A stretch of 64,000 bases of DNA from assembly GCA_964035575.1 (NCBI GenBank), contig OZ037872.1, positions 558,001 through 622,000 on the forward strand, given 5' to 3'. Below are positions 5,460 to 57,162 of this stretch, one piece after another. The first letter of the stretch is position 1. Every line of letters begins with the position of its first letter. Both the position numbers and the translations under genes were made by a program. The stretch comes from Rhynchopus sp. YZ270_cl-10 (Eukaryota; Euglenozoa; Diplonemea; Diplonemida; Diplonemidae). The notes beneath the pieces are model-generated. The model was not told the origin of the DNA and ran no database searches. It was given only the letters and a program-made list of their open reading frames with translations.

Positions 5460-6770
5460 AAAAAGGGGGAATGTCAGGTATTTTTTTGGGGTGGGTTTCA
5501 CACCCCATATCTCTTTCTTTGAACGCTTCCGATGGGAAGGAGGGCTCACGTGCACAACACAGCTTTGTTTTTGCTGTCATTGTTGCAAGTCAAATGCCCT
5601 GGGCCACTAAGTCGTGCAAAGTGGTGTATATAGCATCGGTGCTAGCATCCACACCAAACAGAAAAACGAATAATAATAATAAATGAAACAATCTCATTTG
5701 CAGAGAGAAATAAATCACCATTCCTTTTTTTGCTGTCTGGAAAAATAGTAGTTAAAACGTGCTAAAACGCATCTCAGTCGAGCTCATGCAAAGGGTGGGA
5801 CGTGGGTGTTCCGTACCGTAAGAGAACGGAGGCGGTTCACAACCGCTCGGCGAATCACGCGACCTCTTGAGACCCCGGCCTTTTTTTAACGGCCAAGAAA
5901 CTAATATGATTTTGCACGTACTACCGTGGGAGCACAGCGGGGACCCTAAGGGCAATCATGGCTCAGTTCATAAATGCACACATTGCCATCCAAAAAATAT
6001 TTTCATATTCACACACACACTCCCAGAAAACCCCTTTTTAAACCATCGAATTCACAGCTCTTCACATCGTATATCACCGGACAAAAAAAATTAAATAGTA
6101 GTTACAGGCCCCTCCGACGGACCAATCACCACTATACAAGCCCGGATCAAAGCACAATTTAAATTTGTTTTTGAAAAATTGTTGGAATAGTGCAGTTGCC
6201 ACCTGTGCAAGCTCCACTGTCTGTTTTTTGAGATGACATATACCACGCCATTTGCACAAACACTCATTTAAAAAAAAAGAAAAGAATCGTTTGCAAGATG
6301 AACCTAAGCCTCGCAGTGCTTAGTCACCAAAAAAAAATACAAAGACTGGTTAAGAGCAGAAAGACGGCTTGCCGCAATTAAAAGCCTGCATTCGTGGGTA
6401 TGAGGGGGGAGGAAATCGGCATTCGGTAAAACCGACAGTCAGTTTTTGAAGCTGATCATCAGTCCCCCTTGATCCGATTTGGTTTGTACAAAGAGAGGCA
6501 AGCAACCCACCTGAATGTGTAATAAGTATTTATTTAAAAAAAAGGGGGGTTTTTTTTTGGAACATTGATAAATATTAGTCACCGCCTGAGTGACATCTGC
6601 ACAAGGGGGGTGTTTTTTTTTTTTTATATTTATTTTAATCAAGGGAGAAGGAAGGGAACGGGAGGTAGCGAGATAGGGAAGGGAGACACAATAATATAGT
6701 TTCAGGGGGAGTGTGTGTTGCCCAATAAAGACAAAAAAATAAAAGGGGGGACAACTGCTTCTTCATTCCT
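5460..6770. other. Spacer with GC-rich patch and two hairpin-family copies
   Basis: No gene found. 5755-5960 is a GC-rich island with a perfect GCGGTT/AACCGC stem near 5832-5846; I tested it for a tRNA-like fold and found none convincing. A family 3 copy lies at 6173-6232 and a family 1 copy at 6290-6329. Confidence 0.5.
6290..6329 (-). repeat. Hairpin family 1 copy
   Basis: Plus-strand pieces GATGA, CCTAAGC, CTCGCAGT, GCTTAG, TCACC; read on the minus strand the inner stem CTAAGC/GCTTAG is perfect and the outer stem pairs with one G-U. Confidence 0.65.
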
Positions 6771-6773
6771 TTA

Positions 6774-6817
6774 CTACTGGCTTTCAAGCTCCTTCTCGAT
6801 TGCGTCGATCATGTAGG
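6774..6817 (-). CDS. Possible alternative last exon of the TPR gene
   Basis: Minus-strand acceptor TTCCCAAACAG is followed by an open frame that reads YMIDAIEKELESQ and then TAG TAA. It enters in phase 1, which is exactly the phase left by the donor at 7159. Spliced there it would replace the 6959-7038 exon and give a 389-residue protein ending PYMIDAIEKELESQ. It could instead be a decayed duplicate exon or belong to an unrecognised gene. Confidence 0.4.
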
Positions 6818-6958
6818 CTGTTTGGGAAGTGTTTTGTTGTATTGTAATGTCAGTTTTCAGTCAAAAATTCGGTAGAAAAATGCTCGAGAGACTCGTTTCT
6901 CTTTGCTTGTTGCTCAAAAAGACATATAAACGGGAGGGGGTAAAATAAAGGTTGTTTG

Positions 6959-9434: not shown

Positions 9435-9585
9435 GTTGCCTTAGTGCTGCCTCCTGTCGCTTTGTGTAGAATAGCCCCCCCGCCTTTGTTGTATACTGTG
9501 TACCTACTGGATGTTGTGTGTCACTCTGTTGGTGTTAAAGTGGTGTGTACCGTAGGGTTGGTGGGGAAACTGTTTCTCTGCAATT

Positions 9586-9651: not shown

Positions 9652-9659
9652 AATATGCA

Positions 9660-11160
9660 CAAAAAAATTTTTTAAAAAGGGAGGATGTCCCTTAATTTGC
9701 TATTGTTTTCTAATACTTTTTTCTCAAGCTTAAAATATCAGTCCCCGCTCACCCCAATTTCTGCTTTTTTGCAACTTTTTATCGAAGGGTTTGTTTTTTT
9801 TGCTTTGTTATCGTCCCTTTTTCATCACTCTGTTTTAATCAAACCTCCCCTTTTCCCCCCATCATTTGCTTTCAACGATTGTTATTGGGGCAGGAATTAT
9901 TTTTCCCCCCTCCCCAATAATGCCATATCCTTTAAAATAGGGCCTCTTTTAAAAAAGGGAAAACGAACAGAATCACACCCTCTCTCTCTCCTCCCCTATC
10001 AGTCTCGAGAAAAAAACTGACACAAAAATCGAAGGAGAACATATTGGTGAGATGAATCTAAGCCTCTCTGTGCTTAGTCACCTTTTTTTTTTTTAAAAAA
10101 AAATGGCAAGTTTAGTACCTGGGTGGGCTGAGATCTGGAGGTGTGAAGGGATGCGATGCCCTTTGGGGGGAAAAAAAAACAAAAAAAAGAGAGAGAGTGA
10201 AGTTGAAAGTGCAAAATGCCTCACCATTTATTTGGTGGACACAGGCACTGGTAGGAAGAGTTCACGCAGTCTTCCCCCTCTCTCCCCCCCCCCCCCAAAA
10301 AAAAAAAGGCAAACCCAAGCATGTATCCTCATTGAAAGGTCATGCTGTCTTAATTGGGGGCGTGGGGGTCGCAAAGGTTATGGGTAACAAAATATATATC
10401 GAGCTCACAAGCTCGCGTATGAAGGGGGAAATCCCGTTTTTGTTTTTTTTTTTTTTTTTTTTTTTTTGTGTGCTTTTTTGCTTTTTTTGCTTTTTTTATT
10501 GGGGAGTGGGTTGTTATGGAAGGTAGGGAAAATAAAAAAAAAATATGGTCAACTGCGTCCCTCTTAGCCCAATAAGCGTGAACTCATTGGGTGGAATCTG
10601 AGTGGAATTTTTCGGACAGGTCCCAGAAAAAAAGGGGTGGGGTAGCGACACTACCTTAATCGGCATATTTGCGGAGGAAAAATAACCTTGATAAGAAAGA
10701 TGAATGTGCCTCTTGGGTGCATGCATCTTAGCCTCATCAAGGATTTCCCAAAATAAAATAAAAATAAAATAAAAGATTAGCCACGCCGCTTTCATCCAAA
10801 TAGGACCATCCCCATCTTAGCCCTTTTATTTTTGGGGGGGAAAATGGGTCAGCTTTTTTTCTTTTCTTGTCCCTCTGTTACTTTTTTATTGTATCCCCTT
10901 TTCTGGAAACCTTTGCTTTATATTTTTAAAAAAAATAAGAATTGTGGCAGTATCCTCTCCCTTTCATCGCCATGCAATGTTGTCGTTTATTTCCTCGTCA
11001 GACGATTCCTGTTGGGGTTTTGTTGTTTGATAAATTGTTGGAGTAGTGTAGTTGTCTCGGTTGTGTTGCCCACAGTTGTGCAATCTCCACTTTCTGTTTG
11101 TAGTATCAGCAATCACCCTGTCCGAGGACGGATTATGTACAAAGTCGCCCGAAGGCTAAT
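9660..11160. other. Spacer between the TPR gene and the helicase, with hairpin-family copies
   Basis: A/T-rich with no gene seen. Contains a family 1 copy at 10048-10083, a family 5 copy at 10203-10257, a family 1 variant with a GTGC stem at 10695-10732, a family 3 copy at 11027-11099 and a family 2 copy at 11100-11163, the last two back to back. Confidence 0.6.
10203..10257 (-). repeat. Hairpin family 5 copy
   Basis: On the minus strand AGTGCC pairs with GGCA...GCACT around an inner stem CCACC/GGTGG, then TTCAAC. The inner stem differs in sequence but not in pairing from other copies. Confidence 0.55.
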
Positions 11161-11341: not shown

Positions 11342-14300
11342 CTCGACAAGTGGACCACGTTGCCTCAAGGCGGCGTAGGCGTCACGGATGATGCCTCCGG
11401 GGCCTTCCCCTTTGACGTCGGGCACTTCGATGTCCCCGCCGTCTGCATGCACTACTGTGGGGGCAACCATGCCTGGACCCATCATAGGCTGCTGTGGCTG
11501 CACGTACGGCTGTGGTGATGTGATGGTTGAAGACGATATCATTTTTGACATTTGAAAAAATAAAATAATTGCTTGTATCAAAACTGACTAAAGGGGGAAC
11601 TTTTATGCCCCAGTGAAGTATGGTGGTTTGGAAAAAGGTGGCGATTGATCGCGTGTGTGGCAATGATTGAGCGCAACTGCTGCAGGCTCTCGTCGCAAGC
11701 AACCGCAACTGCTTGGGGAGGTGGTGTACCTGTGCTGCAAGCAGAACATTGCAGTAGTGAACAGCTGTGATAATATATTGTCCTACTTTGCTGACGTGCG
11801 GAAGACGCACCCCTGCAGGAGTTCCTGGAACAAGACGTGAGCTACACGGCATGTCTGCGTATCGGAAGTGCTGAGGGAGGACTTCGTGATATGTGGGCGG
11901 CATCTCCGGGACCGAGCAGTGTACCGCTAATGGCATCCCATGGATATGGTTGTAAGTTGCCTATCTGCATGGGTTTGTTGCGGCTTTGTCTATGTCTGCT
12001 CACTCTGAAGCGACAGTTGAAAGGCATTTTAAAGTCCTTTCGGCTGTGCTTAACAAACGGAGGGCATGAAGCGAGGACGGAGGGCGAGGTGGAGGTTCCG
12101 CATGCATTTTGAGACGGGTCATAAACCCGCGCCATTTTTGACGTGACCGGGCAGGCATACGGAGAGCACACTGCGGAGGACGTGGCGGGGCTCAGCGCAG
12201 ATACCTTACCTTACTACGTGGCCTTTGATGGGCAAAGCGCATGATGGGGAACCGCTGCTACCTTTTATGGATGTCACAACTAAAGAAAAGTTTGCAACAT
12301 GATCCTAAGCCTCTCCTTGGTCACCTTCACATTTAAAAAAAACCTCATACCATTCCAGGAGGGTGCGAATAGGCTGGGTGCTGTGCAGGAATGACGTACC
12401 CTCCAGCGACCTGAACAGGCACGCTGGAGTACCCTGCTGCCATGGCGACCTGTGGGGGTGCTGCGCGCTGGCCCCAGGCGAAGTTGTGCATATAATCTGG
12501 GTAGACGAAGTTTGGGTTGACGTTCTCGTGCATCGCGTACTGCGGCACTGCCTGTGGGCCGACAGCAGCAGCGACACCTTCGGGTGTGACCTCTGAGACC
12601 CCCGGCTGCATCTCGTCTTGCGGAATGACACCCGAGGGCTTGAACATGCTGACTTCCTCTAGCGGCATCGACATCAGCATCTCTGTCGGCATCGCAGTTG
12701 GGTCGCGCATCGCATTCCACATCTGCGTCATCAGGTCCACACGTGCGCGCAGAAGAGAGAAGCCAGGCCCGCCCGATGCCTCGCTTGTTTGTTCCTGAAG
12801 GGGGGATTGAATTCATTGAAAACAATGACTTATTTGAAAGATGGAGAAAGGAGGTGAAGAAAGCATCATAAACTGTAGTTGTTGATGCAGGCGTCTCCGA
12901 CTAATCCACGTATCCAGATGAAAGCACAACACCCCTGCGGCCAATAACAGAAAGTGTAAAAAAGAGGTCTAAAAGCTCATAAAGCTTGGAGACTCGCGCA
13001 AAAGATGCCCGCAAGGGATGGCCCGCGCAGTGCGTAGGAGCAAAGACATACCTGCAAGAAGTTCACGAAGGTCACGTCGTCCATCATGCTGTGCTGGCGA
13101 CGGTACTTCAGCGCTGCAACGCAGTTGCAGAACTGGCCTCTGTGAAGGGTGGAAAGGGGAGGTGCGTTGTTAACACAGCACTACTACGTAGGAGGGGTGC
13201 TGGGAAGAGGTTAAAAAAAAAATGCAAAACGCATCGCCGGACACGTGCACTAATTTATCCGCGTAACAACCAAACCCTACCCGGTCAACTGTTCTTTTGT
13301 ACGCCACATAAGGGAGATATCATTTTCGTTGAATGCCACACGTGTTAACTCTTTGGCGAAAGCGATTTAAGGAAATGGGAAAGGAGAAATAGTCCACGTT
13401 GGCTATTCTGGTCTTCTACTAACACTACACACAGACCGCCTCTGGAAGCATACCTGAACTCAAGAACCAACGACGACGCTTGTGCGGGACAGCGGATGCG
13501 CTTGAGCACACCGTTGATGGTGACACCGAAGGCCCTGTAGGTGCCCTGGCTGTCCTCAAGCAACTGGGAGTTGTACTTGATGACAGGGTAGAGCATGAGG
13601 AGGAGGAGGAGGAACTGCGAGTGTGCCATGGTCTGCTGGATGGCGACAGAGTTGCGCCCTTCGTTGATGGTTATCGCAACAGGGACGACGATCTGCCCAA
13701 GACGCCACGGCGTGACAACGGAGGGGATGTGGCTGTTCGGGTACGTGGAGGCACGCTTCAGGAACAGCGGCATGCCCAACTCTCGGTTCTGCTTGCGCGA
13801 CTCGTTTCGCACTTCACGCACCTTGACTGCGTTCCCTGCAAACGTCACGCAGATGAGCCACAACACAATAGGCTGATGCACCTTCAGCTGCTTCTGCAGT
13901 GAGACAGCGTCCACAATAGCACCCTCACCACCAATATACGACTGGCAAGGGAAGAACGAACGCAGCTCGTTGTGGAGATGCACCACCAGCTCGTCGATCG
14001 CCACAAGCCGCTCCAGAGAGACACACATCTCCTCCGCCCACTGGTCCAGCTCCTGTCCTGCAATGGACTTTCGCTTCCACTCCAAGAAGACAACAATGCA
14101 GGCAACAAGATCTGACTCAGACGTTCTGCAGAAGAACTCCAGCGAGCGGTGTGTGCGCTCCTTCGACTGCGCCGTCGCCTCGAACGTGGCACCCGAGATG
14201 AGGTCAGGGTTCTCTTCTTCGCCGCTCTGCGATATTGTGACGAAAGGGATTGCTGTCTGCACGATGGCCGCACAGATGATGCTGATTGTTTCCAACCCCA

Positions 14301-16295: not shown

Positions 16296-17536
16296 AAACA
16301 GCCTTTTATGAAATCAAACTAGGATCATACCGAAGGAAAGCATTGGAGCTAGAGGGAAACGTCGTTTGTTTAATGACAGGAATTGCACCAGAATCACTAA
16401 CAAACTGGGGATAGGGCACGAAGGAGGGCAAATTTGCCAACCTGCCCAACATTGCCAAGGAAGAGCACCCTTCTTCATCAGGTTTCAGAATTCATAATGT
16501 CTCTTGCGTTGTTACTCCTTGGTGTCTCCTCATGGCCCAGAGGCTGCACAGCACAACAAACGGAGTAGTGGCTCAATGGGAGAGATAGTGCTGCTGCGTG
16601 GCACTGCGTTGTCAACCCAGATGACTGAAGTTCTAGGAACTGTCCCCAGAGTAAGAAGCCATCTAACGCTGAACATAGCATAAAACAGACCCACCCCATA
16701 TAAACGGCGGAAAAGGTGGAGGGAGGGGGTAATCATTTTTGTGTCGGGTTAATAGAAACGTTTGGCCTTTCTTGCCTCCCTTTTGTTACCTGTGTTTTCC
16801 CCACCAGCCTCGTGTTTTTTTCCCCAAAAGACAAAACCGATGTCTTTCCCATTTATAAAAACCGTTGTTTTGTTTTTTTTTTTGTTTGCCAGGGACCCAG
16901 ATAGGGTTTCGGAATGGGGCAGGCCCATTTCACAAACTATATCGGCCCTAGTGTTTTGAAATCAGGTTTGGGCAACCTCCCCCTGTGTGGAAGATCACCC
17001 TGGTTCGTTTTTTTTTTTTTTGTGTTTGCTTTTTTGTTTGGGAAGGCTCGTTTTTCCATTTAATGTTACAAAGTAACAATAAAGGGGGGGGAGGGGGTCC
17101 GACCGAAATCCGGGGAAAAAACTTTTTTTTTTGTAACAATGGCGGGAAAAAGTGGCTTTTTCCAACAACAAGAACTTGTCCATTTCGGCAGATTGACCCC
17201 ACCACAGTGCGGACGGATTCCGGAAATGCAAATGCGGGTGTTTTCGGATGTGCACGTCCACTGCGCCTTGTTGTTACAATAAATGAAAATTCGGAAAAAC
17301 GGTTTTTCCGTGTAACATAGGGGGTGGGAGGGGGGGGTCACCGGGAAAAATGGTTTATTGTTACTTTGTAACATTAAAAGGAAAAACGAGCCTTCCCTTT
17401 TGTTTTTTTTGTGTTTGTATTTATATCTCCAGCCACGCGGTTGAAAGCGGGACTGAAATTGCGTTTAAAGAAACCTTTACATCGTTTGGATCAGTGGCTC
17501 TATGTTGTCACAACAAACGCCATACAAAATAAAGAA

Positions 17537-17672
17537 AAGTTTATAAGATGACCCTAAGCCTCTCTTTCTTGGTCACCTTGATCACATTCGTTATCGCGGA
17601 GCAACAGCTGTGAAAGTGAAGTTATTAATGCAGGCACCTCCGACTGACGTAAATAAAACTCGAATAGATGGA
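17537..17672 (-). repeat. Chain of hairpin families 1, B and 4
   Basis: Family 1 (17537-17579), then a short module ATTCGTTATCGC...CAACAGCTG (17586-17611), then family 4 (GCAGGCACCTCCGACTGACG). The first two modules occur in the same order at 28533-28603, showing that the blocks form a larger unit. Confidence 0.6.
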
Positions 17673-24378: not shown

Positions 24379-24676
24379 AAATGGGGGAAAACATAAAAAA
24401 ACAAAAGAACGCTGTGGGAGTTAGCGTGCCCCGCATAATAGAAGAGGGGGAGAAAAAAAAAGTTTATAAGATGACCGTGCTTAGTCACCTAGATCACAAA
24501 AAAAAAAAAAAGGACGCCACTCAATTGAGTCGTTGCATGTCAAATGGTGATTTTCTCGTCATGGAAGTTTTGTACCATTTTCCTGAGACGGCCACCTATG
24601 TCTCAATCACTTCCAAAAAAGGGGGGATTTTTTAAGATGAACCTAAGACTCTCTATCAAAAAAGAAGAAGGGGAAA

Positions 24677-24722
24677 AGTTGAAAGTGCAAATGCCTTTCG
24701 TTGGCGGACACAGGCACTTTAA
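24677..24722 (-). repeat. Hairpin family 5 copy
   Basis: Minus strand AGTGCCTGTGTCCGCC, AACGAA, AGGCA then TTTGCACTTTCAAC. Confidence 0.55.
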
Positions 24723-24822
24723 AAACAATGTAACATGAAACACAAAGCCCTCTCATATCACGAAACGAGAGGGCTTGAAAAAATGAATGGTACCTCTCAT
24801 GCGGATCTAACGACAACAAAAA

Positions 24823-24865
24823 GGGTTTATAAGATGACCCTAAGCCTCTCGTGCTTAGCCACCTT
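24823..24865 (-). repeat. Hairpin family 1 copy (consensus-like)
   Basis: Plus strand GTTTATAAGATGAC, then CCTAAGC, CTCTCGT, GCTTAG, CCACC. One of the best copies, equal to 28533 and 37140 over the whole motif. Confidence 0.75.
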
Positions 24866-25397
24866 CAAAAAGGGGGTGAAGTAGATAGTGCACGCAGACA
24901 CTGAAAAAATAATAATAAAAAGTTGGCCATAGAACCTAAGCCTCTTTGCTTAGCCACTAAAACCATTTTATGCGAAGCCAAAAAAATGAAAATAAAAAAA
25001 GGTGTCACTTTGTCGTTCCCTCACCCCGCCTTTGTAGTTTGATGCGTTGACGCTTCCACACACACTATCTCTGTTGGGTGGTGGTGTTGCGGGGCACGGT
25101 TGGGGGTGAGTGAACGACGTTGACACTTTCCGCTCACAAAGTAGTGTGCGTGGAAAAAAAACTGACACCCCCCCTCCCCACATCATCCCCAAGGCTAGAC
25201 GTTTTTTTTTTTTGAAACAAAAAAAGGTTGTTGTCTTTTCATTTTTTTTCTTCCATCTTCTTCTCTCTCATGGAGACCAACACACCCCACTCCATGCAGT
25301 AGCACCAAACACCAGGGTTTTGTAACAACCGTAGGGGAGAAAGGCACCAAATAAATCACGTTTTTTTTGTTCGTTTTTGTCAAATTTTGACAAAATA

Positions 25398-25743: not shown

Positions 25744-28212
25744 TTAACAATCGACCCCACGGGACCGGAGGAAGGGGGCATGCGAGGGGTCTCTCCCAAG
25801 GAAACCTTTCACGAGGGACATTGCAGGACGGAGACCACCTGGCGCGAGGACAGTGCTGCGGAACTCTTTGCCAAGGGCGCTGCTGGCGGAGCGTTCCTTA
25901 GCAAAACGGGAGCAGTACATATCGGTACTGAGAACTTCTGACCAAAGATAGGAGTAGTACGCGGACGGGTAGTGGTCTGTCACATGGCAAAAATTGCGCA
26001 GGAGGTTCCACCCTGTGGGGTTCGAGATAGCGGAGAAACGTGGTCGCAGCTCATCTATGAGCGACTGCGCCTCGCTGGCGTCAGCAGGCGGGTCGGTGTG
26101 CAGCTTCAGGTCCAGATAGCTCAGAAAGATATGGTTCGCAGTATCCATACTCGCAGCAACGTGTCTGCTCCCACGGATCTGCCCTATCAGCTTATCTGGC
26201 AGGCTCTCCCCCGTCTCAAAGTGTCGAGACAAAGTCTGCAGCACATCTGCCTCCCAACACCAATTCTCAAACATCTGGCTCGTCACCTCCATGTAGTCGC
26301 GAGGACACTTCGCAAGGCGTGTCATATTCCCGTCACCTTCCGCACAAAGCCCATGAAGGCCATGACCCAATCTGAGAGTGATGTGATAAAAAAAAAGAAC
26401 CAAAAAAAAGATATGAGATGAATGGCGTACTCTTTTCATAATTGTCGCACAAAGACTGTCTTAATTTTGGCGTCGTGGAAAGATGTGGTAATTTATGCGT
26501 GTTTTTGTCGTTGGATTGCACAGAGTAGTGATGGAAAGATTAGCCCCCAAAGGAAGCGGGTGGTGGGGAAAAAAATCATACTCATGGAAAAACGTGACGA
26601 CCTCCCTGTGTCGGAGGAGGACCTGCGCGGCTGTGTGCGGGACGGTGTGGAGGTTTGCAAGCATAACTGCCGCAGGGCCTACCTCGTTAAGACGCTTGCG
26701 GATGAAGAACATTGCAGCGTGGGCATACTTGCCTTGACGGGGATGTAGCTGCAGTGGGAAATGTTGATATGAATCAAAGAAAAAAACCTTTTAGGAGATG
26801 CCCCCTCTTACATAGACACAAAATAAAGAAATCTTGAAAGATCAACGTGCCCCTCGTGCACCTATACAATGATGTAATAATCTGTTGGCATACCCCATGA
26901 GAAATATAATTTGTTAACAAAAAACAAGAAAACTTGACAAATAAACACTAATACAGAACCATCCCTTTTTCACCCCAAAATTTTGAGTACTTCACTAGAG
27001 ACATACGTCAAGGTATAGCTTCCCCACGCTCTTCCCTGTGTCCGCATCTGTGATGCTAAAGAGACGCACCTTCTCATGCCAGGAGTCGAACCCGCTTTGT
27101 GGGACCTCGGCAAAGTGGAGGCCGAGGATGCCGCCAAAGAGGGTGAAGGTGGCGCTGACGACGTGGTCGAGGGGGAAGTAGGGCATGATCGCACGCTCGT
27201 CGATGCCGTGCTCGGCTTCTGCGATGCGGTTTGTGAAGAACGCGACATCCCAGGGGTGAATCGTCCCCTCCACACCACCACCACCACTGCCCTCATGCCT
27301 CACCTTATACTGCACCATACGCTCGTACTCACGCCGTATGGAGGGCTCCAGGTTCGCGTGCAGTTCTTCTAAAAAGCGCAACGCATGTTCTGGTGTGCCC
27401 ACCATGCTTGTCTCGCATGTGTAATGTGCGTATGATGCATACCCCAACAGCCCCGCCAACTCTTTCCGTAACTGTACTAATTCTACCATCAGCTCTAGGT
27501 TGTTTGAGTAGCAGCTTTCCCGCGCCTCGGAGATCCGTTTTCGTGTTCCCTCGACGGAGCAGGAGGAGATGATGGGCATGACGTCATGGTAGCGTACGGA
27601 GACGCTGACCTCTCCTGGGGCAGTGCGGTGTGCGTCCACGAAGGCAGCTCCGACACCGTCCAGCTCCTCGGGGCGGAATGTGAGGATGGTTTGGTCTTGC
27701 CCGACGTTTGCGTTGTATTGACGGCAGAGATCGGTTTCTCGACGTCTTAACGCTTCGAGTTGGACTCTCTGCGTCTCGCTGAGGTGCAACCCGGAGCGAC
27801 GAAAATCCCGTGTAACTGCGGACAAAAAATGCGCCTGGGTGGGAGGGAGCGGGGAGGTTAGGGTACGTTGGTAGCGTTGCACGGTGTTATAGACGTCACA
27901 GCGGGTACGTCCTTTGCGGCGGAGTTGTTTTATGCTTGCCCCTGCTCTGCTGGCGGCCATGCGGATGGTGCTGTTGGGGCTGCAGTGTTGGAGAAATTTT
28001 GCCTCGCAGACTAAAGGATTTGTTTTAAATGCGGACGAAGTGACCAACGGAAGAATAACATTCTCATACGTCAGCTCCTCATCAGACAACGACGCAATCC
28101 GGTCCCACTCCAGCTCGGTCTCTGCCGTCAGCCGCTCCACCCGCTCCCGCACCTCCCCTTCCTCCCGAGGCCATCGCAACGCATCTCCATCTACAACCAC
28201 GCTATCGCACAT
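25744..28212 (-). CDS. M3-family zinc metallopeptidase (thimet oligopeptidase/neurolysin type), 666 residues
   Basis: Cleaves short peptides, usually in the cytosol or mitochondria. Three exons: 27007-28212 (402 codons), 26582-26748 and 25744-26371, joined by a GTATGT and a GTATGA intron in phases 0 and 2. Splicing creates the family signature YLD|LHPRQGKYAHAA and, across the second junction, FFHE|LGHGLHGL, so the zinc motif HELGH is itself split by an intron. The third zinc ligand region follows (YMEVTSQMFENWCWE, E in the expected place). The C-terminal third (FAKERSASSALGKEFRSTVL, LGRDPSHAPFL) also matches the family's substrate-closing region. Length is close to the usual 680-700. No clear presequence, so probably cytosolic. 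ATG at 28212 is the first in frame. Intron 1 holds a family 1 hairpin variant (26833-26868). Confidence 0.95.
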
Positions 28213-28532
28213 CCATAGGTCCGCGCAACAAGGCGCACATGAACGCGAACCGCTTTGAACCCCTATTGTTTGTAAAATGGTATCGTCTTGTTATTGGAAT
28301 TAAAATAAGAAGGGGAAGAGGGGAGGAGGAGGAGGAGTTAAAACTAGAGAATAATAAGGAAAACAAGAGTGAAAAAGAGTTCGTGTATAAATATGGATGG
28401 TGCGCGCGGGTCGGGCAAACCTGTGGGGGGATAAATATTGTTGATTTGTTGGGTGTGGGTGGGGAGGCGGTGAAGGCAGGTTAGTCTCCATCGTGTGGTA
28501 GCTGGCTTTTCGTGAAGAAAAAAAAGAAAGAA

Positions 28533-28777
28533 GAGTTTATAGGATTACCCTAAGCCTCTCGTGCTTAGCCACCTTATCATATTCGTTATCGCACAGCATC
28601 AGCTGCGCTGGCTTCCACAAGTTTGTTGTCAGGGATGGTGTCATTTCCCCAGCCGGAGTTCGTAATTTTGAAAAAAAGTTTAAAATACAAAACCCTTTCG
28701 TGGATAGTGTATCTTGGTGATGGGTACATAGAGGGTAAACCCCCCAACGATGCAGTCCTTCGTACATCCATTTCGAC
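28533..28777 (-). repeat. Hairpin families 1, B and 6 in series
   Basis: Family 1 at 28533-28573, module B (TTATCGCACAGCATCAGCTG) at 28576-28603, then about 100 bp later family 6 at 28706-28777 (GTGTATCTTGGTGATGGGTA, GGGTAAACCCC, CAGTCC). Confidence 0.6.
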
Positions 28778-36998: not shown

Positions 36999-37139
36999 GG
37001 GGGGGGGGGGGGGTTTTGAAATCGACCCATATGTAGAGAAAGGGGAGGAGGGGAAACAGAAAGGTAAATGGGAACTAAAAAAAAAAAAAAAAAAAGGAAT
37101 TGCAATCATGGACCATGACGAAAGCAAAAAGAAAAGAAA

Positions 37140-37226
37140 AGTTTATAAGATGACCCTAAGCCTCTCGTGCTTAGTCACCTCATCATAAAACTTGTAAGAC
37201 AAATGTGCCTCACGTGCACACATCAA
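37140..37226 (-). repeat. Hairpin family 1, both stem types side by side
   Basis: 37140-37180 has the CTAAGC/GCTTAG stem; 37190-37226 has the TGTGC/GCACA stem and loop ACGTGAG. Adjacent copies with different stems and similar loop. Confidence 0.7.
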
Positions 37227-37781: not shown

Positions 37782-39341
37782 TTATGTACGTGTTGGGGTA
37801 GATTTCGGTCCGCTGATGGGTTTCCATGTTGTTTGTGGTTTGGCAAGCTTCGCTTCTTCTCTGCGGCGACGCTCCTGCAGCTCTAAGGGGTCTTCTTTGT
37901 ACTCAGGGAAGGGGCTGATGGTGCAGTTGAAACCCTTTTTACCGGGGGAGGAGGGTTTGAAGGCGACGGGGACGGTGCGGATGACCTTCTTCTCGTGGTC
38001 CTTCTTGGGAGGGAGAGGGCGGTCGAGTGAATAGATCTTGCTGCTCCCTTGCTCCGTCTTGTCGAAGGTGCCGCCACCCCTGCTCGATGCCTTAAACGCC
38101 CCGCCAATGTGCTTCTGTATCGCGTGTCTCTGCTCCTCGATAGTTCTCTTGTGTTCAGCGTCGAACGGATCGCTCTGGTACCTGTATGGGTCACCAATGC
38201 AGGTGTCGGTGATGCCGTGGGTGCCCTTCTTGCATGTGCCGGTCACAATATTCTTCGGAATTGCCTTAACCTTTTCTGGAAGTTCGCCCTGTGGTGTTGG
38301 GGGTAAAAATGGCTAGTATGATTGGTGCGGTATTGCAAAAATTGAGAAGATGTAAAACAATAAAGTTGGTGATGTGCCCTTATCTGGACTTTCAAAAAAA
38401 GAGAGGCTGAATGTGCAAACACCTTCGGTTGCCCCCCAGAGAGCAATTTCATGTTTAGTTTAAGATATTCTTTAAACTACAGAAACTTGTCCAACGATGT
38501 GCCCTCGTCGCTATACCGTAAAAATATTTATTCTGGGCTGTAACTATTCTGAGACAGAAGTATACTGGACCGGAACAAAACTGGAACACTTGGGGTTTTT
38601 GGGGGTGTCCCAGTTTTGTTCCGGCCCAGAACAGTTCTGTTGGGGTAGAATTTTTATCCCCATTCCCACCCCACCCAGGTGCATAGTGCATCTTTGGGCA
38701 AAAAAAAATCGTCGCACTCCTCGTTTTTTTTGACAAGGCACGGATACCCCCCCAAAACAATGCTGGTACGGAACAAAACTGGAACAATCGACGATTTTTT
38801 GGGGTGTTCCAGTTTTGTTCCGGCCCAGAATAAATATTTTTACGGTAATCACTCATATCATAAAAAGAAAAGTTTATAAGATGATACTAAGCCTCTCGTG
38901 CTTAGCCACTTTAAAAAAGGGGGTTGAGAACGTTGAGAGACATACCCGCTTCACCACATCGTACTCTGTCTCGTGTTTGGGGCGTTTTTCGGAGGATACG
39001 AAACAACCGAAGTAGTTTCCAGACCCGCACGACTTCTTCCCTGGGGAGGTGTACTTGAAGCCGTCGGGGGTGATCTTCCTTTTTTCTTGGGAGAGGCGGT
39101 ACTTCTTCTCGTGTGTGCCTGGGTCTACGTACTTGTCGCCTTCATGTATGCTCTTGAAGCGTCTGTCGAAGGTCACATCTGGGCCCTGGCCCTTCTTTCC
39201 TGGGGATGACGAGAAGCCCTTTCCCTTGTAGCGGTCATTCGTTATCGCCTTCTTGTCATACTCGTCGCCAATAGATATGTAGGAGGGCATCCCAAAGACA
39301 CCAATCTTCTCCATCGCCGTGGTGCTCACAGTTGCGCTCAT
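37782..39341 (-). CDS. CFAP96: CFAP96 (C4orf47-type) ciliary protein, 300 residues
   Basis: Cilia- and flagella-associated protein of the UPF0602/C4orf47 family. Two exons, 38946-39341 (132 codons) and 37782-38288 (168 codons and TAA), joined in phase 0 by a 657 bp GTATGT intron. Family marks: MEKIGVFGMPSYISIGDEY near the start, FKSIHEGDKYVDPGT, several 'SPGKKG' boxes (SSPGKKGQGPD, TSPGKKSCGSG, SPGKKGFNC), PYRYQSDPFDAE and FPEYKEDPLE near the end. Length matches the family (about 300). No signal or membrane segment; it decorates axonemal or centrosomal microtubules in species where it was studied. Its presence is good evidence that this organism builds a flagellum. Start: ATG at 39341; another ATG nine codons later (MEKIGVFG) is equally possible. 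The intron carries a MITE and two hairpin-family copies. Confidence 0.88.
38397..38441 (-). repeat. Hairpin family 5 copy in the CFAP96 intron
   Basis: Plus strand GGCTGAATGTGCAAACACC, TTCG, GTTGCC. Confidence 0.45.
38516..38845. mobile_element. Double-hairpin MITE, 330 bp, in the CFAP96 intron
   Basis: Ends CCGTAAAAATATTTATTCTG and inverted copy, flanked by TA (38514-38515, 38846-38847). Two inner hairpins each built on GGAACAAAACTGGAACA and its complement. Ends begin CCGTA like the 5001-5132 element, so the two may share a transposase. Confidence 0.8.
38870..38911 (-). repeat. Hairpin family 1 copy in the CFAP96 intron
   Basis: Plus strand AGTTTATAAGATGATACTAA, GCCTCTCGT, GCTTAGCCAC; lies 35 bp inside the intron's 5' end. 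Confidence 0.7.
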
Positions 39342-40867: not shown

Positions 40868-41010
40868 TTGATAGTGCAAGCGACTCTACGACGCAGGCAC
40901 TGTACTTTGACGTTCAAAAGAAAGAAGAAAAAAAAAATTGAATGCACTCCCTTCGTGCACACATCCAACAGGCTAGATGAACCTAAGCCGTCACGGTGCT
41001 CAGTCACCTT
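40868..41010 (-). repeat. Hairpin families 5 and 1 in series
   Basis: Family 5 (minus strand AGTGCCTGCGTC, GTAGA, GTCGCTTGCACT), a GTGC-type family 1 variant, then a family 1 copy with extra CGT/ACG pairs next to the loop. Confidence 0.55.
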
Positions 41011-41044
41011 AAAAAAATACGGAGACATTGAAATCCCTTTACAC

Positions 41045-42074: not shown

Positions 42075-43400
42075 TTGTTATTGTAATTTTCAACCACCTT
42101 CCTTCAACCCTTGTAGGATCAGTCTTATTTTTTTTCGCGAAAATATGAAATTACATATTTCAAGAGAACAAATTAAAAAGGGTCCTTATTTGCATTTTTG
42201 GGCTCCGCCCGTGCAGTGGTGGGGTCAATCTCGAAAATTGGACAATTTTTTGACCACTTAAATTTTGAGAAATATGAGCCCGGTTGCTTATACGTGGGGC
42301 CCATTTTTGGCCAAACTTTTCCTCAAAATCTGGTTTTGTAAAATTGACCCTTTACTCCCCCCCCACATCGATTTCAATACTATACCTTACTTCACCTACG
42401 GTTACCCTTACAGGGGGGGTGAAGGAAGGTAGGTTGAAAAGATGAACATAAGCCTCACAGTGCTTAATCACCTTTAAGAGAATGGAAACGCTGACCATTA
42501 TTTTTATGTTTTTTTTTTTATAATATCTAGTGGGGAGGATATAGTGAATGGGAGGTGGGAAGGGGGGGTGAAAAATAAACAACAACAGAATGGGGAAATC
42601 ACATATTTCAAAAATAAAAAAATTTTTTTGGCAACGTTTTGTGTCTCTTTGAACAACAGGTTGTCACCTTTCAAAAAAAAGGGTTTTGCAGGATGAACCT
42701 AAGCCTCAGCGCTTAGCCACCTTGAAAAATAACGGAGACTCTCTCTTGTCCCTTTTCCCCCCCTTTGGGGAGAAGAACAAAACACACACACACACACACA
42801 CACACATTTTTTCCTTTTTGAGAACTCTTGGGATCAGCTACTAAATATAAACAAATTTTGATAGGGGTAAGGGGGGTAGGGGGGATGAGGGACACTATAA
42901 AGAGCGCAAAATGCAAAAAAAAAAAATAATAATAAATGTTTTGTAAGACGGAACACTAGCCTCGCTGTGCTTACCTTACCAAAAATAAAATGAAAAAAAA
43001 ACTAACACCTCCCCGAGGCTCTCTACAATGTGAACATTAACCAAAAACTTCACACCAAAGTATGACTCTCACTCACACCTCTGGCGAGCGCACACTTCGG
43101 CACAGCGCTTGATTGTTCCCATCTGACACACATTCTCTACAAACAAAAAAAGGGCGATAAAGCGCTCTGTGCTTAGCCACCTTCAAAAAGAAAACATACC
43201 CTCTGGAGGGTGTGTTGCGAATACACTTACAAGTACAACAAACAATTTTTTTTTCTCCCCTTTCTTTTGTCCTCTATAGCAGCAACCAAACCCCTTTTTT
43301 GTGTCAGGATCCAATTCAAGTTTCAGTATCACCCGAAGGCTAGAATTCCGCGGGAAATAACAACATGGATTGCAGTTCTCTCCCCCCCCCCCCCCCCCCC
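42075..43400. other. Spacer with four hairpin family 1 copies and a (CA)n run
   Basis: Family 1 copies at 42437-42473, 42683-42723, 42940-42980 and 43152-43183, all one orientation and about 230-260 bp apart; a (CA)n run at 42783-42807; a family 2 copy with GCC UUCG GGU at 43300-43350. 42180-42355 has weak inverted ends AAAGGGTC. No gene. Confidence 0.6.
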
Positions 43401-45820: not shown

Positions 45821-46100
45821 CCCCCCCCCCCCCCCTGACGTCATATTGACACAAATGGGAGATGGATAAAAATAAGGGGGGGCAAAGGGGATGGTAAAGA
45901 TTGTGCACCAGAGGCTACCGCTACTCACTGTATGTAGTGGGAAATACAGGCCCCCTTCTTTGTGACGTATACACGAGAAGTTTTTTTTTTTTCTTTCTGG
46001 ACCCAAGGACAGGTGACTACAGTTATTCAGAACAAGAAAAAAAAAAAAATAAGACCACATATTTGTGCGGGGGGGGCTGTCCAAAAAAAAGGAAAAAGAA

Positions 46101-46142
46101 AACTTGTAAGATGAATGTGCCTCTCGTGCACACTCATCTTTA
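46101..46142 (-). repeat. Hairpin family 1, GTGC-stem type, perfect copy
   Basis: Minus strand outer AAGATGA/TCATCTT and inner TGTGC/GCACA both pair fully around loop ACGAGAG. Confidence 0.75.
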
Positions 46143-47630: not shown

Positions 47631-48034
47631 ACACGCTTTAGCGGAGCAGCTTCGCTGCGTGTTGGGAGATCTTTGATAGAGACTACCGTCCTTTTGATTT
47701 GACATGGCACGCACACTGCTATTTGGCAGAATATTTATTTGATTTTCCTCAGGCTTTGTCCTGGTTGGCCGGGGTCCGTTTATGTTTCAGTCTCTACCCT
47801 CACCAAATCACCACACCATCTTCATCAGATTTTTTGTTGGAATTTGTTTTGGGTTGTTTCGGCTTCCACATTCGCCCCCCTCATCTTTTTGTTCCCCCAC
47901 ACACGATTCTTCGCTTCGCATCCATCTTCTCGTCCCCTTCCAAGCCACCTAGACGCCTCGGTAGTGTGCAGCCTGCTGGGACATATACACCACCTTCGAC
48001 TCCGCCTTCTCCACCCAGTGCACCCCTCGACGCT

Positions 48035-49288: not shown

Positions 49289-49423
49289 CGAGAGCAGGCG
49301 GCAGCGCGCGTTACGCTCTCCCTCCCACCACCCTCCCCCCCCTCTCCCCCCCCTCTTGTTTTTTCTTCCCCCCCCCCACGGCCCTCCCCGCCAAAACACA
49401 CATCCGCCGAGTTTTCTTCCGAA

Positions 49424-50419: not shown

Positions 50420-50421
50420 GT

Positions 50422-52125: not shown

Positions 52126-52406
52126 TGTCCTTAGATTATTCTTATTTTAGATTGCCTTCTGTTTTTTCTTCCAGCTTTTCATTAAAGCTGTTTCCCTGCC
52201 CTGTTTTTTGTCCGCTGTTTTTTTGCAGTGGCTTTTGGTTTTATTTCTGGATGCCTGCGCCCGCTGAGGCTTGGTGTCGTATCATTGGTTTTTTTGTTCA
52301 CTCCGCCTTTTTTCTGGGCCCTCGGGGGTCCTGTGTTTTTGTTTGTAGTTGGGATGGATGCTCTCGTGGCCTACGGGTTTAAATATTCTACGTGACGGTG
52401 TCAGGA

Positions 52407-52999: not shown

Positions 53000-53003
<4 letters not shown>

Positions 53004-54646
53004 ACTCTCCGCTTCTCCTTGGCATTTCAGTCAGCTCTGCAAACGACTTACCAAAGACATTACAAGAGAAAGAGAAATATGTGAAATTGAACATGCACCA
53101 CAAGAAGGCCCCGCTTCAGCAAAAAAAAAATAAACACTGAATGTCCTATATGACCCACTCCTGCACCCATATTGTTTTATTGTATCGACCCCCACAAATA
53201 GGTGTGCTCTGTACTCAATGTTAGGATACAGACACACCTAAAGGTGTTTTTTGTTTTGTTTTTGTTTTTGTTTTTGTGTTACTCTATATACTATCAACCC
53301 ATTGGAGTAGATGCTTTATTTCTATTTTTTTTTTTTATTTTTTTTTTTTTTTTGAAATATTTGCTCTGTACGAGTCTTTGACACTCAAGGATGCCACACT
53401 ACACATTTTTTTTTTTTGTATTGTTTTGTTTTATTTTTTGTTTGGGTTTCCCCCGGTCCGATTCTTCAGCACATCGCCTACCGTCTCTGTAAAGGTACAA
53501 AAAAATAGATAATTGGGGGAATGAAAATTTGATAAGAGGAGCCTGAACCTAAGCTGAAGCTTCTCTGGCTCATTCGAACAGTAACGATACCCCTGTCTGC
53601 TTCATCACCGCAAACTGACATCATTGGGAAAAGGCCCCTTTATGAAAGAAGGCAGAAAAAGTTTATAAGAACCCAAGCCACTCATAGTTAGTCATCTTTC
53701 AACGAAAATCAACAACGCTGCTCCTGGTCATGCCAAGTGAACACCAGGGCACCTCTCTCCCAATCCTGAAACCGACAATTTGTTTCAGATAGCACTGCTT
53801 TCACCAGCTGTACCGGGGCAACCACACTACAACCCCCTGACTTGACTCATACAACGACGTACAACGACAATACAAAGATAAGGCATGACCCCACAACAGG
53901 GTTTGCATTCCATGGCAAGATTAAACCCCTTCTTATTAACTCCCTTTTGTGAGCTGAAAGGAGTACTGTGTCCACGCCATCCTCTCTCACCATGCTCCCA
54001 TACGCGGTGCACATGACACTTCTGGCTAAACTTCTAGACTTAGTAATTATGTATCAGAAACTATCCAATGAGCTTCCACATAAAGAGCAGCGTTGAAATA
54101 CAAAGCCCTCTCGTGACAGTGTACCTTGGTACAATGACCGGTTGTACCGGTCGGGAATAAAGAGATAAGTGTTGCTAAAGATAAATTGAAGATATTAGTG
54201 CAGGCACCGACTGACCCACGTACAATGCCGCCTGAAATAAAGGCACCTAAAAGGTCTCGATTTAGATCAATATTTTGAAAGGACCCCCTAGCAAAATGAA
54301 GCCCCATATCCATCCCCAATTCAAGGCCCACATACGTAAGAGTAACGCTGGTCGGTTCCCAAATCACGGTTGTAGCGAGGGCTGTGAAGAAGAAGGTTGT
54401 CAAAAAAAAAAATGCGTCAAAACAATCTGAGACTACAAAAGGGTTTGTGAAAGAGGCTTTTTTAAACGCCTTACTCTACAATTTTGCAAGGAAGTAAGAT
54501 GATTTTTAAAAAAAATGACAAAAATATGCAAAAAATTAAAGGTGAACCCCTCACCCTCCTAAGACGCCTTGAAAGATGGGTCTTGCAACCCGCCTCTCAC
54601 ATCCTCACCAAAATGACAAAAAAGACTACCTAATAAAATGGCATAC
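53000..54646. other. Spacer 3' of the FCP1-like gene
   Basis: Holds hairpin-family copies: family 2 at 53155-53230, family 1 at 53539-53580 and 53658-53700, family 6 at 54090-54165 (with GACCGG/CCGGTC) and family 4 at 54185-54235. The unfound last exon of the FCP1-like gene should be here or just 3' of its donor. Small open frames at 53827-54012 and 54047-54403 are not recognised. Confidence 0.5.
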
Positions 54647-55851
54647 CTGGTGCTGGTGGTTGGGTTGTTGACCTCGAGCCAGTAGCACTCGATGTAGTCA
54701 CCTCTGTCTGTGGGCACCCTTCTCCTGCTGAGCATGGGGCACTTGGAGAGGTACTCTGGGACGCTCATGCCGCTGGAGACGAGGCCCTTGATGAACTCGG
54801 TCATCCTTGGGATGGTGCTGTCGGGGAGCTCACCCCCTTCGTAGTCCTGCACGAGCACACCGTTTTCTCTGTTGCTTCTGATACAGTCCGGTGTGTTCTC
54901 GATGATAAGTGTCTTGTCAAGGCTGCGTCCAAGCAGACTGAGGTCCTTCTGGTATCCTGCCTGCCCGGTGAACCACTTGCTGTGACGGTAGATGCAATGC
55001 TTGATTGCATTGTTTTTGTCAATGTTTGCGAGCACTGCCTGAGCATATGCGCGGAGACCTGCTGTCCATGCAATCGCCTCCGTATCACGCCCGATGTAGT
55101 CAAACAACTCATCCACCCCTGGACGAGCGTACAGCGGCCCATCCCTTGCATAGATCAGCGTCTCATCCAGATCCAGAATGATTGAGTATTTTCCGTAGTC
55201 AGCGGCGGCCTGCTGTGGGATCATCATGGTACCGGGTTGGCCAAGCATGGAGGGGGCCCTACGCATTCTGCTTCTCGGGGAGAGCCCGTTGTAGTCCTCA
55301 CGGAAGGAGGTTCCTCTGACACGCTGGCGTGGTGTTCCTGTAGGAGAACCGTACCTTTGCCCTGAGGTTGGGGTGCCTGCAGTTCCGTAGACCCCTGAGT
55401 TGAAGGAGGCAGGGTGGTTGATGGCGGTTTTGGTGGGAGTCGAGAGGCCCACCCCTTGGGAGGTGGAGGGGACGTAGCCGAGGCCGGACTTGAAGGAGGT
55501 TGCGCCGAGGTTGTATGGGTTGTCCTGCAGGATGGAGGGACGTTCGCGGAGGCCTGCTCCGGGGCGGTCGCTGTAGGGGGACTTTGGTGGGGTGGTCTGT
55601 CCAGTGTATCTGTAGTCACGCTCCATGGAGAGTGGAGACGTTGTCCTAAAGCTCGGCCTTTCCTTCAAAGGAGACCCCTGATGCTGAGTCGGCGACGTCG
55701 ACCGTCCGCTGTACAACCCCGCAGTCGGCGAGGTCCCGTACACACCACCACCCGACCCCGAACGCGATCCGTACCCTGTTGGAGAAGGCGGGCGGTACCC
55801 TGTTGCCGAGGCGCCATACGCCCCTCCATAGCTGTACCCACCGCTTCTCAT
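54647..55851 (-). CDS. FCP1-like HAD phosphatase with long disordered N-terminus (3' end unresolved)
   Basis: Protein serine phosphatase of the FCP1/SCP (NIF) branch of the HAD superfamily. ATG at 55851. Residues 1-210 are low-complexity, rich in G, S, Y, P and T with many SP/TP sites, probably disordered and phosphorylated. The catalytic domain follows: IILDLDETLIYA (motif I, DxDxT variant with nucleophile Asp), YARPGVDELFDYI, AIAWTAGLRAYAQAVL (motif II threonine), KDLSLLGRSLDKTLIIENTP (motif III region; the usual second acidic pair after 'LIIENTP' is replaced by DCIRSN). A clear CAG|GTATGC donor at 54647/54646 ends this exon in phase 2, so the last residues (after STTSTR-type region) lie in another exon; a short exon starting after GATGTGAGAG near 54597 (ending LGG and TGA) is one weak candidate. 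Substrate unknown; similar proteins act on RNA polymerase II tail or other targets. Confidence 0.82.
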
Positions 55852-57162
55852 TGGAGCTGCTTTAGGGGAGAAGGGGGAAAAGAGAGAGGGAGAGGGAGGG
55901 GAGAGAGAGGTGAAAAAAGAAGAAAAACCTTGTGTATATTTATCCTTTCGTTCGTTATCAAAAACGGCTCGTGTTTGGATAATTCTGTGGGTTGGTTGGT
56001 GGAGGAGGAGGAGGATGAGGAGGAGGGAGGGGGAGGGGGGATAATCTCAGGGGGGGGATATATGGGGGATGTATGGAAGAATTAGAAGGGTTGTTTTTGT
56101 AGTGCAATGCCGAGAAAAGAGGGGAGAAGAGGAGGAGGAGGAGGGGGAGGGAGAAGGAAAAAATCAACACGGTTGTTGGTTGAGGTGTCTAGTAGGAAGA
56201 GAAAAAAAAAAACTGCGTGGAGATCACACGAAGAAAACAAAAAAAAAGGCGAGGTGACTGCACATTGTCAATTTATCAAAAAGAAGAAGAAAAAAGGAAT
56301 AGTTATTGATGCAGGCACCCCTCCGACTGACCCTACTCTACCAGCCATCCGGATGAGAGCACGGAAAAAAAAATCTGTACGCTCCACGTTGGTCGGTCGG
56401 ACCTTGCAAAAGAGTGTGCGTCTGCGCGCTACACTTTGTTGTGATTTATTTTTTGTCTTGAAATATTATTTTTTTGGCTGCCACCTTGTTTAAAACCCTT
56501 TTGCTCTTCTCTCCAAAAAAAGACTTGGTTGTATTAGTAATACTCAATACATCTTAACAGAAAAATGAAGATATAGACCAAGCTTTTTAAAAAAAAGAAC
56601 GCCTACATTATAATAGACCACTAAAAAAACGAGAGAATGAAGTTTAAACAAAGTGCCTTTCACCAAAATAAAATAAAATAAAAACTTCTCTCCAAAGATA
56701 AAATACCTCTGTGAACCTATCCTTCTCTTGGAAGATACATACCCTGGAATATACATAATTATACGAGTGTTTTTGAAAGGGAAAAAAAAATGCATAGGGT
56801 GTGCACCGGGTGGGGGAAAGACACCCTTCGCACACTCCCACCCACGATACGTTTTGTTATCGGCAATAATTTTTTGAAACATAAAAAAATTGTCAGATGA
56901 ATATGCCTATTGTGCACACACATCTTTCAAAAAAAGAGAGAAAAAAAAATGGACAAAATGAACCTAAGCCTCGCGTTGCTTAGGAATCAAAAAAGAAATA
57001 AAGTATGGAATAAAAAGGGTATTGTGCAAACTACTCCGCTTGGTCAAATTGAAAACAGAATTTTTGAGAGGAGGAGAAAAAAAAATACTGCCCAAGATGC
57101 AGAGAGCTGCAAAAAGCGTAGCAGACGTGGTACTTAAAAAATAAAAATAAAAATAAAAATTT
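55852..57162. other. Spacer 5' of the FCP1-like gene
   Basis: Purine-rich GGA/GAG runs at 55860-56160. Family 4 copy at 56293-56362, family 1 GTGC-type at 56892-56930 and family 1 at 56957-56987. No gene seen. Confidence 0.55.
56293..56362 (-). repeat. Hairpin family 4 copy, longest
   Basis: Plus strand TTGATGCAGGCACCCCTCCG, ACTGACC, then CCAGCCATCCGGATGAGAGC. The ATCCGGAT and CCAG/CTGG parts can pair. Confidence 0.5.

Follow-up and report, generated by a model that had tools for sequence, protein, structure and literature searches.

Along a 64-kb stretch of DNA from Rhynchopus sp. YZ270_cl-10 (the window), a short hairpin with a conserved loop is repeated many times on one strand. This raises the question of what the hairpin is, how it was spread, and why its copies point the same way. 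The preliminary description had proposed a functional RNA with two kinds of stem, groups 1 and 2, which are called classes 1 and 2 here.

Hairpin copies in the window and in the genome

The motif was present at all 17 places listed in the preliminary description, each of which was printed; those at 53658, 10695 and 26833 were degenerate. The single-strand layout was borne out by a two-arm scan of the window. With at least 20 of the 28 arm letters, 16 matches lay on the minus strand and none on the plus strand, and each of five shuffles gave none. At least 19 letters gave 16 minus and 2 plus matches (shuffles 1-3), and at least 21 letters gave 12 minus and 0 plus matches (shuffles 0, 0, 0, 0 and 2). 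Among the 16 matches, the one at 13850 was discounted, being inside a helicase ORF, and the one at 24457 has lost its loop. Furthermore, a covariance model (R1) built from 47 class-1 copies, 12 of them from the window, gave 16 matches at E<=0.01 in the window. All were on the minus strand, and one (46096) was a class-2 copy. Rfam gave no match in the whole window at the gathering score, in agreement with the earlier statement that no family with this loop was known.

The copies in the window are all on the minus strand. The class-1 tail hairpins, with their R1 scores, lie at 6283..6332 (57.1 bits), 10037..10086 (57.0 bits), 12284..12329 (51.0 bits), 17533..17581 (63.2 bits, preceded by about 30 nt from the LINE A 3' end), 24819..24867 (65.6 bits), 28529..28577 (57.7 bits), 37135..37183 (65.8 bits), 38866..38914 (60.9 bits), 40962..41012 (36.7 bits), 42427..42476 (55.8 bits), 42678..42725 (49.2 bits) and 56943..56992 (43.3 bits). 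The copy at 38866..38914 is in an intron of a CFAP96-like gene, the flanking ORFs being both CFAP96-like. Directly 5' of the hairpin at 28529..28577, the LINE A 3' end (the ORF end) is represented by about 95 nt at 28576..28670. In addition, class 1 was represented by degenerate hairpins at 24916..24962 (25.3 bits) and 53655..53700 (27.4 bits), and by a remnant without the loop at 24456..24493 (33.4 bits). Class-2 hairpins lie at 37196..37226 (score 21), 46096..46142 (33.0 bits, an exact match in the genome-wide class-2 search) and 56894..56926 (score 25). Degenerate ones occur at 10697..10729 (score 23) and, recognised by sequence, at 26836..26870 in an intron of a peptidase M3 gene, where both flanking ORFs are Peptidase_M3. 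A third class, found in this analysis, has tail hairpins at 10202..10249 (LINE B type, score 27), 24684..24718 and 40873..40901.

The genome-wide pattern searches covered 152 Mb in 126 contigs. Class 1 was found 1457+1482 times with up to three mismatches and class 2 180+158 times, with a control of 0 in both cases. The hairpin core had no match in IMG/VR. Spliced-leader RNA arrays mark this genome as that of a diplonemid, a single-celled flagellate. The outer stem can form a perfect palindrome, which was found at 491 places against 6 in the control, as would be expected of DNA-level palindromes or chance inverted repeats. However, the antisense strand of the common form contains A-C mismatches, near-identical copies occur by the thousands, and two of the classes are LINE tails, as described below; the chance that this explanation is right is negligible.

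RNA fold and pairing

The claim that G-U pairs favour the fold of the gene-direction strand held for typed consensus-like copies. The minimum free energy of class 1 was -13.7 kcal/mol for the sense strand and -7.9 kcal/mol for the antisense strand, and that of class 2 was -15.5 and -11.5 kcal/mol, respectively. The sense RNA had the more stable fold in all three classes. Moreover, two features beyond the preliminary description were seen: the predicted folds allow a GNRA-type tetraloop, C(GAGA)G, to form in the loop, and the hairpin has a conserved AUAAACUUUUCUUU tail on its 3' side.

Both stem arms differ between classes 1 and 2, as had been claimed, and different stems mean different LINE families. 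Compensatory change within class 1 was not confirmed. Both-sided changes were found in 4 of 13 pairs, while the shuffles had a mean of 2.2 and 68 of 500 reached 4. In the covariation check on the 47 class-1 copies, the observed score was reached by 161 of 500 shuffles, and RNAalifold gave no consensus fold for the class-1 alignment. Transitions were counted in 55 of the first 95 rows, seeded rows being dropped; 49 kept the pair and 26 broke it. When the A/G subfamily site was excluded together with the G-U pair, in which either transition preserves pairing, 28 kept and 26 broke the pair. The class-1 copies decay about neutrally. The idea of a structured RNA in the gene direction was therefore retained, whereas that of a free-standing functional RNA held by compensation was abandoned, since the hairpin is a LINE 3' end and its covariation is no higher than in shuffles.

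The hairpins might still be selected cis-elements of polycistronic pre-mRNA, acting in processing, stability or polymerase processivity, with the LINE origin as mere history. Such exaptation would suit the near-absolute sense orientation, the better sense fold of the three classes and the location of copies in introns and intergenic stretches; Leishmania SIDER2, as outlined in PMC5509151 and PMC2323293, promotes mRNA decay. However, neither the covariation nor the transition counts given above point to selection on pairing, and inspection of the window by eye showed no constant position with respect to genes. This explanation was considered quite improbable.

LINE tails as the source of the hairpins

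Class 1 was shown to be the 3'-terminal stem-loop of an APE-type LINE (LINE A). An intact LINE A ORF of 1462 aa (L073:829-5214, minus strand) encodes a reverse transcriptase domain (RVT_1, 5.3e-24) and an apurinic-type endonuclease domain (Exo_endo_phos, 1.9e-13), and the best solved relatives of the protein were human LINE-1 ORF2p chains (8e-20). The ORF ends ten bases before the hairpin, and the 3' order is the stop codon, CGAATATGAT, the hairpin and ATAAACTTTTCTTTT. Rfam gave no match to this locus up to an E of 5. A protein search with the C-terminus fetched, among the matches listed, six LINE A loci (L067-L072, L067 being the source of the query itself). Similarly, class 3 was shown to be the tail of LINE B, which encodes about 1476 aa and whose RT-region matches had 56-58% identity; its fetched 3' ends (L074-L077) consist of the stop codon, 13 nt and the class-3 hairpin. 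A conserved 3'-terminal stem-loop thus follows the ORF in 6/6 fetched loci of LINE A and 4/4 of LINE B. By analogy, class 2 is probably also a LINE tail; its upstream pattern gave three places only, and no parent LINE was found with it. The end of LINE C, fetched with its surroundings as a 1300-base stretch, contained none of these hairpins.

Other origins were also considered. A spliced-leader or snRNA origin was rejected, the 3' part of the SL RNA being unlike the hairpin by eye. A branch-point/splice-acceptor module (AUAAAC followed by pyrimidines) was dropped, as the downstream AG was irregular by eye. Among titles and abstract beginnings, with few subscription journals represented, no paper on tail hairpins of diplonemid LINEs was recognised.

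Most copies examined consist of the tail hairpin alone: in 74 of 85, LINE sequence is absent on the 5' side of the hairpin, leaving solo tails of about 50 nt. In side-by-side copies, the LINE A sequence upstream is common and the 5' ends are, by eye, sharp and different; the 25-mer directly 5' of the hairpin in these copies occurred 222+199 times genome-wide. Copies truncated at the 5' end with a common 3' end are thus present, together with an excess that starts at the hairpin base. When only the tail served as anchor, 9 of 21 unseeded copies began at the hairpin base or a single base outside it, another 6 reached further out, and 6 fell short of it. Pure 5' truncation would be expected to give graded lengths, so that a further, putative step is required to account for the excess at the hairpin base. 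Three tests for target-site duplications, in T-rich surroundings, gave none above permuted flanks (in one of them, the best z was 2.9 among 240 combinations).

Very probably, then, the hairpins are the RNA tails of diplonemid APE-type LINEs, spread genome-wide by target-primed reverse transcription. The stem-loop would be recognised by the LINE protein, as in the stringent type. Reverse transcription would begin in the U-rich tail and would mostly terminate at the stem-loop base. ZfL2-1, ZfL2-2 and UnaL2 are LINEs of the stringent type, in which a 3' stem-loop tail is recognised (PMC4176376, as outlined there). As in these elements, the LINE RNA of the diplonemid ends in a stem-loop plus a simple tail, and the stem-loops differ among the LINEs of one genome. 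In contrast, recognition by the ORF2 protein is putative here, and the solo tails and strict orientation are features of this genome that do not appear in the part of that account drawn on here. The same source describes SINEs sharing a LINE 3' tail, and as in that case the short tail-sharing copies outnumber the LINE. Unlike SINEs, the copies have no shared head. A SINE with a pol III-derived head was accordingly rejected, because the 74 copies carry no extension and the upstream flanks of the printed copies differ from one another.

Orientation relative to transcription

Nearly all copies checked lie in the direction of polycistronic transcription, as was shown for the sampled copies. The hairpins of the window gave 16:0 in the two-arm scan. 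Where orientation was decidable on the map of hairpin places among the matches listed, LINE A was sense in 16:0 (18 of 34 places undecidable and dropped) and LINE B in 19:0 (22 of 41 dropped). Class 3 was sense in 43:1 among the matches listed, with 56 of 100 places undecidable and one discordant place at C26:33937. On a map that also included LINE A and B, LINE families C-E were sense in 17:5, after 6 of 8 C, 7 of 16 D and 17 of 28 E places were dropped as undecidable. The DIRS elements were sense in 43:9 among the matches listed (83 of 135 places undecidable). The orientation of LINE A, LINE B and class 3 is therefore stricter than that of DIRS or LINE C-E. Under a looser rule, 36 of 122 LINE places agreed, 2 were discordant, 38 were undecidable and 46 lay on contigs with no mapped hairpin.

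Of the 22 loci that did not overlap and reached a coding score of at least 25, a cut chosen afterwards, 21 had the hairpin in agreement with the coding strand; L025 was dropped for its overlap with L024, and L029 was the sole disagreement. Single loci are weak, because the highest coding scores among reversed sequences were 65, 38, 29 and 28. Per-locus orientation is circular for most loci, which were picked for their hairpin; the window, bystander copies, class 3, the LINE ORFs and the coding strand are exempt. No orientation count is given for class 2, since its copies are near-palindromic and the antisense matches are mostly mirror images.

The sense orientation might stem from selection against antisense copies, acting for example through antisense RNA or unwanted signals for splicing or polyadenylation, rather than from the mechanism of insertion. 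Other mobile elements are indeed mostly sense: besides DIRS, pairwise matches of other repeats in the same loci gave 289 in the same and 97 in the opposite orientation, and class 4 (the CAACTACACTACTCC repeat) gave 14 plus and 2 minus. Class 4 was first taken as a two-strand control; being mostly sense, it cannot serve as a clean one, and the DIRS elements, likewise used as a control, share this bias. SIDER2 in Leishmania 3' UTRs is 82% sense according to the portion of PMC11520807 used, and an RNAi gene set is described for Diplonema in that of PMC10161547. However, the sense orientation looks equally strict in the roughly 50-nt solo copies and in 4-kb LINEs, long open frames are present in antisense copies of DIRS and LINE D, and the DIRS element of the window is opposite to the recognised genes. 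As the sole cause, selection is possible but was thought to fall somewhat short of even chances; as DIRS is also mostly sense, selection may contribute to the bias. A strand asymmetry in target tracts was rejected as a cause, being too weak to account for the bias: polypyrimidine tracts of at least 10 are nearly balanced between the strands (205 vs 162), and the ratio for longer or mixed tracts is at most about 2:1.

Replication-fork direction might set the orientation instead of transcription, both running outward from the same interior point of the chromosome. Among 49 contigs with at least two places of the three classes, among the matches listed, 34 were '-+', 10 '+', 3 '-', 2 '+-+' and none '+-', as this explanation would predict. 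However, at an extra switch on contig C2 the hairpins, LINEs and coding strand change together, and at L029 a minus hairpin lies by a weak minus-strand ORF within a plus arm. Neither case separates the two fully; the fork explanation was regarded as unlikely.

We infer that transcription-linked insertion of stringent-type LINE tails is the best reading. Priming of the first strand would be almost entirely restricted to the transcribed (template) strand, so that the copies would come out sense. A bolder proposal is put forward tentatively: the LINE machinery would for the most part copy nothing except its 50-nt recognition hairpin, a solo-tail retroposition, and its insertions would be almost confined to the template strand in transcribed chromatin. 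Leishmania SIDERs are about 0.5 kb long, carry a 79-nt signature (Pr77, at the 5' end) and are about 4:1 sense in gene clusters, as summarised in PMC2323293, PMC2424063, PMC2689281 and PMC11520807. Like them, the hairpins are degenerate retroposon fragments across euglenozoan polycistronic units and mostly sense; they differ in being about 50 nt, in being a 3' hairpin and in being nearly all sense, the SIDER bias being milder. An orientation bias linked to transcription is also described for human L1 in the part of PMC5717806 used, where transcription-coupled repair is proposed to prevent template-strand insertions, those that take on the orientation of the gene. The bias in the diplonemid has the opposite sign, as its copies are sense.

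An apparent new RNA family has thus become a readable record of retrotransposition. It is unusual in that most copies examined are the tail hairpin alone and nearly all those checked follow the transcription of the chromosome. The hairpin copies provide a cheap strand map of the chromosomes, which suggests that many of them are transcribed outward from one interior point. If the solo-tail, template-strand proposal is true, each insertion would be a record of transcription direction, and the polarity of every chromosome arm could be read from copies numbering in the tens of thousands. Should insertion prove to be coupled to transcription, diplonemids would offer a natural system in which to study this coupling.

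Hairpin classes and their genomic setting

The assembly comprised 152 Mb in 126 contigs, including the window (C40:558001-622000), and its source is, judging from clustered spliced-leader RNA genes, a diplonemid. Searching with what we take to be the diplonemid spliced-leader pattern gave 751 matches within 3 mismatches genome-wide (control, 3), clustered at C1:1351987-1504597 and on C2, C3, C9, C11, C13, C22 and other contigs, in both orientations. The leader was 39 nt long and ended 3' in CAGTTTCTGTACTTCATTG, directly followed by GTATGG; a U6-like gene adjoined one cluster by eye. For Diplonema papillatum, the part of PMC10161547 consulted describes a 39-nt leader exon, trans-splicing and unidirectional gene arrays.

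In the window, 12 ORFs on the minus strand were scanned with Pfam, and 11 were recognised (EF-G, TPR, helicase, cold-shock, prenyltransferase, peptidase M3, CFAP96, NIF phosphatase and PRAI-PALP). The last, at 60283-62064 (-), was a phosphoribosylanthranilate isomerase fused to a PLP-dependent (tryptophan synthase beta-like) enzyme. Among the plus-strand ORFs, 2 of 23 scanned were recognised, both in a DIRS-like element (47642-52130, +; RVT_1, 1.5e-10; Phage_integrase, 3.5e-05, below its cut-off). This element, with a reverse transcriptase (RT) and a tyrosine-recombinase-like ORF, lay opposite to the recognised genes, and its RT had at least 135 scored matches genome-wide. In addition, the 9-mer GTACCTACA occurred in 163 tandem copies at 57406-58875, and a 360-bp tandem repeat (2.7 copies; no Rfam match) at 686-1648.

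The hairpin of the preliminary description was borne out by the copies printed from the window. Its group-1 consensus on the minus (sense) strand was AAGGTGR CTAAGC A C[GAGA]G GCTTAG, about two unpaired bases, TCATCTT and then ATAAACTTTTCTTTT. A two-arm scan at a chosen cut-off found 16 group-1 copies on the minus strand and 0 on the plus strand; 2939 places matched within three mismatches genome-wide, and extrapolation from the window density (16 per 64 kb) would give of the order of 38,000 copies, degenerate ones included. At least two hairpins sat in introns of recognisable genes, at 38866 (CFAP96) and 26836 (peptidase M3). At another locus (L007:1501-1650, -), a hairpin lay by eye directly 3' of an apparent ankyrin-type reading frame, which might run on into it.

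Group 2 had the same design as the other classes. A third class was found through strand-biased words and the printed flanks of hairpin loci, with the motif AGTGCCTGCGTCC...GAGGCGTTTGCACT followed by YTCAAC and pyrimidines. In the sample it occurred 23 times in sense and 0 in antisense (reversed control, 2), and with the cut relaxed the counts were 43 and 16 (control, 11); one variant had 519+503 places genome-wide (control, 0). All three classes folded better in sense than in antisense.

LINE origin of the hairpins

Printed side by side, some group-1 copies shared progressively longer sequence 5' of the hairpin, with sharp and differing 5' ends, a pattern that LINEs with 5' truncation should show. 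Following the longest such stretch led to the C-terminus of an ORF and, by protein search (at least 122 matches), to LINE A, whose intact 1462-aa ORF on C40 carried APE endonuclease and RT domains. Ten bases separated its stop codon from the group-1 hairpin, and stop codon and hairpin followed each other in all six loci fetched by this search (the query's source locus included). Likewise, in all four 3' ends fetched for LINE B (ORF of about 1476 aa; RT about 57% identical to that of LINE A), 13 bases lay between the stop codon and the class-3 hairpin. The group-1 and class-3 hairpins are therefore LINE tails. For group 2, a parent LINE was looked for by upstream pattern and at the end of the further family LINE C, and was not found. 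On C6, by eye, a 5'-truncated LINE A copy (L064, L066) seemed to sit in the terminal part of a gene whose tandem relatives adjoined it.

The hairpins, better explained than at first reading, are best taken as a known kind, the tails of stringent-type LINEs. In that type, according to the part of PMC4176376 consulted, the protein recognises a 3' stem-loop; by analogy, the LINE proteins of this genome would recognise theirs.

Stem differences and solo tails

A free-standing functional RNA kept by compensated stems had been proposed. Between classes, both arms indeed differ while remaining paired, which separate LINE families would be expected to show. Within group 1, however, covariation was not beyond shuffles, and pair-breaking transitions were about as common as pair-keeping ones, with a subfamily site and a wobble pair set aside. 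Single copies, by their sequences, decay like dead insertions. The case for a maintained RNA was therefore not supported.

LINE letters were absent upstream of the hairpin in 74 of 85 copies (seeded and bystander). With a tail-only anchor, 9 of 21 unseeded copies began at the hairpin base or one base beyond, 6 extended further and 6 ended short of it. Furthermore, three class-3 copies of the LINE-B variant (L014, L032, L059) all started in a T-run, with an identical GTC between it and the stem. Ordinary 5' truncation should give graded lengths, whereas copies starting at the hairpin base are in excess; RT may therefore tend to stop at the base of the stem-loop or, alternatively, a small tail RNA may be the template.

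Orientation relative to transcription

The window hairpins were co-oriented with the genes. The hairpin was on the coding strand in 21 of the 22 loci that did not overlap and reached a coding score of 25 (a cut chosen afterwards); the exception, L029, held a second, minus-strand hairpin beside a weak minus-strand ORF. The same hairpin was the only one of 102 model matches (E<=0.01) to oppose its locus, the loci being mostly chosen for holding a hairpin. Along contigs, the strand of the three classes switched about once, from minus to plus, among the places listed: the 49 contigs with at least two such places read '-+' (34), '+' (10), '-' (3), '+-+' (2) and '+-' (0). This strand map points to outward transcription from a single interior point on many contigs. 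An extra switch was seen on C2 and C26.

At decidable places, ORFs agreed with the hairpin map 16:0 for LINE A and 19:0 for LINE B. The comparison elements were less strict, at 17:5 for three further LINE families (LINE C-E; Fisher p = 0.006) and 43:9 for DIRS elements (p = 0.010), p-values that serve as a guide only because copies within one family are not independent. Some antisense copies occur among these LINEs, whose long open frames are of 1747 aa (C8, C39, C41), 1668 aa (C3, C7) and 1597-1617 aa (C4 and C96, many copies on both). Other repeats of the same loci gave 289 pairwise hits in the same and 97 in the opposite orientation.

Under target-primed reverse transcription, a copy comes to lie in sense when priming takes place on the template strand; the simplest mechanism would then be that this strand is preferentially accessible to LINE insertion while it is being transcribed. 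Two rival explanations of the sense bias remain, namely selection acting against antisense copies and orientation set by replication direction. In the parts of the literature consulted, Leishmania SIDERs also have a sense bias, but a milder one (PMC2424063, PMC2689281, PMC11520807), and human L1 has the opposite bias, attributed to transcription-coupled repair of template-strand insertions (PMC5717806). What is unusual in these LINE tails is their solo copies and their near-absolute co-orientation with transcription.
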